Shown here: one piece after another, positions 7,657-10,337 of the stretch
Numbering within the stretch: the stretch's first letter is position 1
Layout of the letters: every line of letters starts with the position of its first letter
Made by a program: the position numbers and the translations under genes
Notes under the pieces: generated by a model
Databases searched by the model: none
Told to the model about the DNA's origin: nothing
Seen by the model: the letters and a program-made list of their open reading frames with translations, nothing else
From: a bacterium
GTDB lineage: Bacteria; Myxococcota_A; UBA9160; SZUA-336
Direction of reading: 5' to 3'
Assembly: GCA_024226335.1 (NCBI GenBank)
Contig: JAAELY010000270.1
Location: forward strand, 1 to 64,000
DNA length: 64,000 nt

Positions 7657-9363
7657 TTGCTGAGCAGGTCAAGGGTGAAACGACCCGAAACAGCCCCCGC
7701 GAGCGACCCGGGTCGCAGTCGCCCTCAGACGCCGGACTCCAGCGGAGTCTTCGAAAACGAGAAGGCGGAGCGTCTACTGGTCGTCGCAGAGGGATGCGAT
7801 GGCGCCGGCGGTCAAGGCGGGAGGGAGACCGCGGCGGGAATCTGTGTCGAGGCGATACGGCGCGCTTTTGGCGATGGTGACGGCTTTCCCGACGAGCGCC
7901 TGCGAGACGGTTTTTTCTGGGCGAACAGAACGATCTGGGATACGGCTCGGGAGGAACCGGGATGTGCCGGGATGGTCGCGACGGCCGCGGCGCTGATCCA
8001 CCAACCCGACGGTCCAGCCTGGCTCGGCTGGGTGGGCGACTGTCGCGCATATCGCTATCGATCCGGTCGCCTGCATCTGCTCTCACGGGATCACTCGGTG
8101 GTTTCCGAGTGGCTTCGCCTCGGAATTCTGACCGCCGAAGAGGCCGTGAACCATCCTAGATCTGGAGAACTCCTGCGCTCCCTGGGGGTCTCGCAGCGGG
8201 TCGAGCCGGAGGTGCGTCGCGTCGAGGTGCTTCCCGGTGATCGCATTCTGCTCTGTAGTCGGGCGCTCAGCGAGGCGCTACCTGAGGAAGAGATCGCAGC
8301 AGTGCTCGATTCTGCTGAACCCGGCCTCGCGGTCGAGAAGCTAACGGCCAGAGTTGCCGACAACTCCGGCGGGCGCGAGAACGCGACCGTGCGGATACTG
8401 GCGTTGCCCGCGCCGAAAGAGATTTCGCCCCCGGCGATCGCCGCACCCGTGTCCGATCGCGTCCTGCTTCGGCCCTCGCGCCGCAGCGGCCTGGGCCGCG
8501 CGATTCCCAGTGTGGCGGGCCTCGTCTTGCTACTCGCGATCGCCGCGGCGGCCTACACCGTGAGCGGAGGAGACCGGACCGTCGCTCAGATCCTGGCCAT
8601 GGTGACGGGACAGCCTGGAGAGCAAGCGCGAATCGCGGAGGTTCGTCGAATCCAGGAGGAACAGGCGCGGAGACAGCACCGCGAACCGACTGCCGCACGC
8701 GAGCGGAGTGTATCCGCCGCTCCCATTCCCGACGAAGCGGAGAGCGCGGCGGCAAAGCCGAAGCCCGATCCGATTCCTGTGGTGGCGGCAAAGCCGAAGC
8801 CCGATCCGATTCCTGTGGTGGCGACAAAGCCGAAGCCCGATCCGATTCCTGTGGTGGCGACAAAGCCGAAGCCCGATCCGATTCCTGTGGTGGCGGCAAA
8901 GCCGAAGCCCGATCCGATTCCTGTGGTGGCGGCAAAGCCGAAGCCCGCCCCGATTCCTGTGGCCGAAAAGCCTTCCGGCGAGTCCCTCCTGCCCGAGGTC
9001 GGCAGCGCTCCTCCTTTGAAATTGGAGCCACCCCTGGATGACGCGTCGTTGCAACGTGAGATCGCCTACTTCCTCGCGGACTGGGCTCTGTCCGTCCGGG
9101 ATCGAAACTTCGAACTCGGTCAGTCCCTCGGCTTTGTTCAGAGCGAACAGGATTTTCACCGGATATACCGCGGCTCCAATTCCATCGACGTTCGCTTCGA
9201 GCTGCTCGAGTACCGGACGATCGAGGCGCGTCTGCATCGCGTTCGCGTTCGCAAGATTCTCTCGTTTCAAAAAGGTGAGGCGATCCGCAGCGAGCGGGAA
9301 GAGCAGGAACTGCTGCTGCGGGAGACCGAAGGTGGATTGCGCTACGAAGAGATCGCCGAATAG
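7657..9363 (+). CDS. PP2C-like phosphatase domain, one TM helix, Pro/Lys repeats and NTF2-like C-terminus
   Basis: 568 residues. Residues ~38-250 follow the PP2C (PPM) pattern: CDGAGGQGG with Asp48, GWVGDCRAYRYRSG, LLSRDHS, ILLCSRALSE and NSGGRENAT. The last motif normally reads DN; here it is EN, and the first motif is also divergent, so activity is uncertain. A membrane helix lies near residues 286-305. Six copies of a 12-residue KPKPDPIPVVA unit follow (extracytoplasmic by the usual topology). The final ~100 residues look like an NTF2/SnoaL-type alpha-beta domain. The TTG start has a GAGAGG ribosome site; GTG at 7675 is an alternative. Confidence 0.7.
   Translation: MLSRSRVKRPETAPASDPGRSRPQTPDSSGVFENEKAERLLVVAEGCDGAGGQGGRETAAGICVEAIRRAFGDGDGFPDERLRDGFFWANRTIWDTAREEPGCAGMVATAAALIHQPDGPAWLGWVGDCRAYRYRSGRLHLLSRDHSVVSEWLRLGILTAEEAVNHPRSGELLRSLGVSQRVEPEVRRVEVLPGDRILLCSRALSEALPEEEIAAVLDSAEPGLAVEKLTARVADNSGGRENATVRILALPAPKEISPPAIAAPVSDRVLLRPSRRSGLGRAIPSVAGLVLLLAIAAAAYTVSGGDRTVAQILAMVTGQPGEQARIAEVRRIQEEQARRQHREPTAARERSVSAAPIPDEAESAAAKPKPDPIPVVAAKPKPDPIPVVATKPKPDPIPVVATKPKPDPIPVVAAKPKPDPIPVVAAKPKPAPIPVAEKPSGESLLPEVGSAPPLKLEPPLDDASLQREIAYFLADWALSVRDRNFELGQSLGFVQSEQDFHRIYRGSNSIDVRFELLEYRTIEARLHRVRVRKILSFQKGEAIRSEREEQELLLRETEGGLRYEEIAE
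8755..8961 (+). repeat. 36-bp in-frame tandem repeat, six copies
   Basis: Near-identical units encode KPKPDPIPVVAA with Ala/Thr variation; the last copy changes Asp to Ala and is shorter. Near identity at DNA level suggests recent expansion or ongoing copy-number change. It forms a Pro/Lys-rich linker between the membrane helix and the C-terminal domain. Confidence 0.92.
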
Positions 9364-9476
9364 GAGCCTCTTGCGAAGACTCTCGGCCCCGGAAAAGTAC
9401 CCACGGGTACAAGATTTCCCACGGTAGACGGATCGCGCTGCTAAGATTCCGGTGGGTCAGTCATAGGGGGGATACG

Positions 9477-10337
9477 ATGGCCACCAAGCGCAAGAAGACG
9501 ACGGCACGCAAGAAGAAGGCTCCAGTTCGCAAGAAGACGAGCGCTCGCAAGAAGGCTCCCGCACGCAAGAAGACGACAGCGCGCAAGAAGGTTACCCGCA
9601 AGAAGGCTCCCGCGCGCAAGAAGGTTACCCGCAAGAAGGCGGCGCGGAAGGTTACGCGCAAGAAGGCGGCGCCGAAGAAGGCCGCGCGGAAGAAGACGGC
9701 TGGCAAGAAGGCCGCGCCGAAGAAAGCCGCGCCGAAGAAAGTCGTGAAGCACGTCGCAAAGAAGCCCGCTCGAAAGAGTCCGGCGCGCAAGAAGGTCAGT
9801 GCGAGTTCCGCGCCCGCGGTGGATCCCATGAAGGCACTCGCGCGCAAGATCGTGCAGGCCGGACAAACTCCCGGAAGCGTTCCTCTGGAAGATCTGTATT
9901 CGACGGATTGTGAATCCTATGAAGCGGGTTCGAACGAGCCTGCAGTCGGAATCATCGGGCTGGAAGAGAAAGCTGAGAACTGGTCGCAGATTCAGGAAGA
10001 AGTCGTCTTCACTGCGCTCAACGTCTGGACCGGCCCGAACACGATTACGATCGAATGGGATGGTGAGGTAAAGCTCCGCGGCGGCCCGAAGGTCAACCTG
10101 CGCGAAGTGGCCGTGCACGAAATCCGCCGGGGCAAGATCCAGCGCGAGCGGTACTACTACAATCCCGCTGCGCTCGTTCCACCCGAGGATGTCACAGTTG
10201 CAGTCCCGCCTCCGCCGCCACCAGAGCCCGAGATCGTCGCGGTTGTGGAGAGTCCGCCGAGTGCACAGGCCGCGCCTGATCTTCCGCCCTGGGCAACCAG
10301 TCGCGACGAAGATCCCGACGGATCGAACTCCAGCTGA
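9477..10337 (+). CDS. histone H1-like Lys/Ala/Arg tail fused to an NTF2-like domain
   Basis: 286 residues. Residues 1-110 are almost only Lys, Arg, Ala, Pro and Thr in repeats of ARKK, TRKKA and PKKAA, as in bacterial histone H1-like proteins (HctB, AlgP), and should bind DNA. Residues ~115-235 form a globular region (IVQAGQTPGSVPLEDLYS, GLEEKAENW, RGKIQRERYYYN) resembling SnoaL/NTF2-like folds. The tail is proline-rich, then acidic. The ATG at 9477 follows a GGGGGG stretch. A GTACCC-AC-GGGTAC inverted repeat lies at 9397-9410 upstream. The fusion is unfamiliar to me, and the role (nucleoid binding plus ligand or partner binding) is inferred. Confidence 0.75.
   Translation: MATKRKKTTARKKKAPVRKKTSARKKAPARKKTTARKKVTRKKAPARKKVTRKKAARKVTRKKAAPKKAARKKTAGKKAAPKKAAPKKVVKHVAKKPARKSPARKKVSASSAPAVDPMKALARKIVQAGQTPGSVPLEDLYSTDCESYEAGSNEPAVGIIGLEEKAENWSQIQEEVVFTALNVWTGPNTITIEWDGEVKLRGGPKVNLREVAVHEIRRGKIQRERYYYNPAALVPPEDVTVAVPPPPPPEPEIVAVVESPPSAQAAPDLPPWATSRDEDPDGSNSS

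Follow-up and report, generated by a model that had tools for sequence, protein, structure and literature searches.

A SnoaL subfamily with a conserved histone H1-like tail, and its possible role as a nucleoid tether

The protein described here, encoded in a 64,000-nucleotide stretch of bacterial DNA (the window), joins a histone H1-like basic tail to a SnoaL/NTF2-like domain, and evolution has kept the two together as a specific SnoaL subfamily. Independent genomes encode proteins of this layout with 35–53% identity in the domain, so the architecture of the window protein is more than chance. It is not an already catalogued one: neither Pfam nor NCBIfam has one model that spans all of it, and no description of a tail combined with a SnoaL/NTF2-like domain was found in the open-access literature. 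From the analysis as a whole, we hold it an even prospect that this undescribed subfamily uses its tail, bound to nucleic acid, to keep a folded, likely dimeric NTF2-like module on the nucleoid; for the window protein itself, such tethering is plausible.

The open reading frame is intact (Table 1), and the start of the protein (P0001), MATKRKK, resembles those of its relatives (MATRKK, MAARKK and MAGRKK). A preliminary description of this DNA had reported a Lys/Ala/Arg tail of about 110 residues and a proline-rich, acidic end. Both are present; the tail measures 116 residues, of which 46% are Lys or Arg and 22% Ala, with a net charge of +52 and one acidic residue, and the DNA encoding it contains imperfect tandem repeats. 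It is H1-like in the loose sense of being Lys/Ala-rich and nearly free of acidic residues. Membership of the HctB family is rejected, as the histone H1-like profiles all score below their cut-offs on the window protein (HC2, PF07382, 21.3 bits against 40; NF038052, 15.6 against 135; NF038053, 24.6 against 80). Elsewhere in the same genome, a separate H1-like frame of near-pure (RKKAT)n is found at a contig edge (L119; genome G000, contig C458, bases 11–322).

Table 1. Features of the tailed SnoaL gene, with positions in the window.
Feature	Residues	Positions	Strand	Basis or remark
Whole open reading frame	286 plus stop	9477..10337	+	Intact; program-made ORF list and translation
Shine-Dalgarno-like site AGGGGGGA		9465..9472	+	Upstream of the ATG; read from the sequence
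Histone H1-like basic tail	1–116	9477..9824	+	Composition; weak, sub-threshold matches to HC2/H1-like models
SnoaL/NTF2-like domain	117–228	9825..10160	+	Pfam above cut-off; AlphaFold; Foldseek, VIA-align
Proline-rich acidic C-terminal end	229–286	10161..10334	+	58 residues, net −9; without DP(L/M/I)DL terminus

Profile search and structure prediction agree with the proposal that the globular region has NTF2/SnoaL character. Pfam SnoaL_5 (PF20409) matches residues 138–228 with 30.4 bits, above its cut-off of 24.1; the SnoaL_2 and SnoaL models also match, both below their cut-offs. An AlphaFold model of residues 110–245, calculated as a single chain from 24 sequences taken from the window and the fetched loci, has a mean pLDDT of 94 and a pTM of 0.84. 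Its top Foldseek match is Mlr7391 (PDB 3hk4; E 1.5e-7), and VIA-align gives Z values of 13.5–15.8 over 112–127 residues with many NTF2-like chains, including those of ketosteroid isomerase, LinA and limonene epoxide hydrolase; the domain thus has the NTF2-like cone fold. Conserved charged and aromatic positions are Tyr141, Glu149, Glu193, Trp194, Glu210, His214, Glu215, Glu224, Arg225 and Tyr228. A common fold alone does not mean a common function.

Searching genome contigs with a single sequence found nothing, and an alignment-based scan found relatives. At a threshold of at least 125 bits with one combined profile, the close family comprises 28 distinct members, and a basic tail is clear in 26 of them (net +5 to +52, the window tail being the longest), partly masked in one (L003) and absent from one (L002). 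Start codons were picked by a simple Shine-Dalgarno rule and tail lengths are therefore approximate; charge is preserved across the members while length varies. Among distant SnoaL relatives (at most 69 bits), 30 of 32 lack a basic tail. Two distant SnoaL proteins (L077 and L079), from another family of the window's class, have a Lys-rich N-terminal tail of different sequence, which is probably an independent gain.

In the window's class, which probably belongs to the Myxococcota, the domain profile finds close relatives in seven further genomes at E 1e-50 or better, which belong to two families, the window's own and another; a sample of 379 genomes of the window's phylum yielded no more close relatives at E 1e-15. 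A second group (L018–L029), obtained by scanning named genomes, falls in one other class, probably the Binatia, in which 18 of 148 genomes carry the gene. Most tails of L018–L028 are short (25–44 residues, net +5 to +12). L027, labelled as a Klebsiella pneumoniae metagenome-assembled genome, groups with the sequences of this second class, and its label is probably wrong. The survey of other genomes that the preliminary description had called for thus recovers the layout in two bacterial classes, and what could be read as a single fusion is a conserved family spanning at least two. In the domain tree, the window copy lies on a long branch (1.19) with forks left open, and the tree does not fix its placement.

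In the window's clade, six proteins (L002 and L005–L009) end in DP(L/M)DL, and the DPIDL terminus of L013 brings the relatives with such an ending to seven; the window copy, L003 and L004 do not have it. When five carrier genomes were searched with a DNA pattern for DP(L/M)DL followed by a stop, the sole true match in each was the subfamily gene, a second match in the window's genome having TGG in place of the stop. The window copy is most identical to L003, itself without the peptide, and so may never have had one; it may also have lost it, and the domain tree does not decide between the two. The window's genome also encodes a paralogue, L002, which is situated at a conserved trpS locus and has a DPMDL end and no tail, placing the tail on one paralogue and the C-terminal peptide on the other. 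The tail is thus dispensable to at least one copy. That an ancestral two-ended tether was split between these paralogues, which might pair as a hetero-dimer via their NTF2-like domains, strikes us as improbable; the window copy would then have kept the DNA-binding tail, enlarged to +52, but no docking peptide, and the acidic end with its DPMDL would have stayed with the tail-less trpS-locus copy.

Flanked by genes for a PP2C-like protein on one side and a PAP2-like protein on the other (Pfam), the window copy has no neighbours in common with the related loci compared, and its gene context gave no function. The PP2C-like phosphatase gene (7657–9363, forward strand) contains six near-identical 36-base repeats (KPKPDPIPVVA) at 8748–8962. 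By eye, the C-terminal stretch of its product looks like another NTF2-like domain; a fold model of the last 120 residues reaches a pLDDT of only 55, and a search with them for sequence matches to solved structures found none. Relatives of this protein are widespread in the window's class. At the trpS locus, the members L091, L096 and L098 have an aminotransferase class IV/ilvE-like gene, trpS and a Gfo/Idh-like oxidoreductase gene as neighbours. In the second class, the order is fixed: DUF4079, RNase H, a chlorite-dismutase/HemQ-like protein, the SnoaL-tail gene, a weakly LplA-like and a BioB-like protein. The weakly LplA-like protein, between the SnoaL-tail and BioB-like genes in L018–L028 (for example L028, 6285–7409), is itself conserved.

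In the mechanism we propose, the N-terminal tail would bind DNA, or another nucleic acid, without sequence specificity, as suggested by its composition and by the precedents of AlgP, PhaF and CarD. Dimers are common in the NTF2-like superfamily, also among the structural relatives of the module, which most likely forms them too; the result would be a particle with two tails. Such a particle could bridge DNA, or the cone could hold a small ligand or a protein partner. The proline-rich acidic linker of most proteins in the window's clade ends in DP(L/M/I)DL, probably for docking to a partner. The near-universal tail of the subfamily, compared with 2 of 32 among the distant SnoaL relatives, speaks for tethering. 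Against it, most tails of the second class are weaker than classical H1-like tails, and the trpS-locus paralogue of the same genome is tail-less. Nor is binding by Lys-rich tails confined to DNA: RNA, ribosomes, polyphosphate and acidic proteins are other possible targets.

A rival reading, unlikely in our estimate, is that the tail binds RNA, the ribosome or polyphosphate instead of DNA, which would make the protein a factor associated with polyphosphate granules or ribosomes. The H1-like protein AlgP associates with polyphosphate granules (PMC9239181), and PPK1 is present in 11 of 14 genomes searched; however, one carrier (G005, 93% complete) encodes the protein without a PPK1 match, so polyphosphate is not required. 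In the window's clade, trpS adjoins the subfamily gene at its conserved locus, but proximity to trpS is by itself weak evidence. We rate it somewhat less unlikely that the protein works as an ordinary enzyme of the SnoaL type or binds small molecules, and that the tail is a mere appendage for solubility, localisation or crowding, with no role on nucleic acid. Conserved positions such as Tyr141, Glu149, His214 and Glu224 would fit this, as would the nearest structures, which include putative polyketide cyclases as well as ketosteroid isomerase and limonene epoxide hydrolase, and the HemQ-like, LplA-like and BioB-like neighbours in the second class suggest metabolism; yet nearly all members keep the tail over a large divergence, its charge preserved despite changes in length. 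A tether of PHA granules, similar to PhaF and PhaM in its logic of tail plus module but with the granule-binding part swapped for the NTF2-like domain, is scarcely credible. PhaC_N was found in none of 14 genomes, 10 carriers among them, while a Caulobacter control was detected, making PHA granules an unlikely cargo; the absence of PhaC from all 10 carrier genomes searched strongly disfavours this tether, and the window protein has no phasin match in Pfam or NCBIfam.

If nucleoid tethering is true, the conserved pairing would bring into the set of nucleoid-associated proteins a module that is small, probably dimeric and possibly able to bind a ligand; the carrier groups are represented in this analysis mostly by metagenome-assembled genomes. 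Few globular modules in bacteria are known with H1-like tails, examples being phasins, AlgP and CarD, and the DP(L/M/I)DL terminus offers a concrete handle for a partner search.

Novelty with respect to HctB and AlgP, as originally claimed, holds for the NTF2-like partner, which is the new element; joining an H1-like tail to a globular module is a known theme, seen in PhaF, AlgP and CarD of Anaeromyxobacter. The histone-like tails of PhaF, PhaM and AlgP serve to place cargo on the nucleoid (PMC9239181, PMC13052382). The window protein shares with Pseudomonas AlgP and PhaF the joining of a Lys/Ala-rich, H1-like tail to a separate module, but in those two the tail is C-terminal and the module helical or a phasin, not NTF2-like; they also differ in that no PhaC was found in the searched carriers of the window subfamily. 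In two myxobacteria, the C-terminal domain of CarD (the orthologues CarDAd and CarDVi) is a comparable K/A/P-rich, H1-like region (PMC9304148). These proteins, probably from the same phylum, share with the window protein the combination of a bacterial globular interaction domain and an H1-like region, but their tail is C-terminal and their globular part is the RNA-polymerase-binding CarD/CdnL domain, for which a Pfam search of the window protein gave no match. A 2009 paper cited in PMC9304148, going by its title, reportedly found HMGA- and H1-like domains to be functionally equivalent. Chlamydial HctB (Hc2) and the H1-like proteins of Burkholderia resemble the window protein in their Lys/Ala/Arg repeat composition; it differs from them in scoring far under the profile cut-off and in its extra SnoaL domain. 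With SnoaL_5 proteins such as Mlr7391 it shares the fold, a profile score above the cut-off and a conserved ERxYY end; the SnoaL-like proteins examined outside the subfamily have, with two exceptions, no basic tail, whereas the window subfamily has one.
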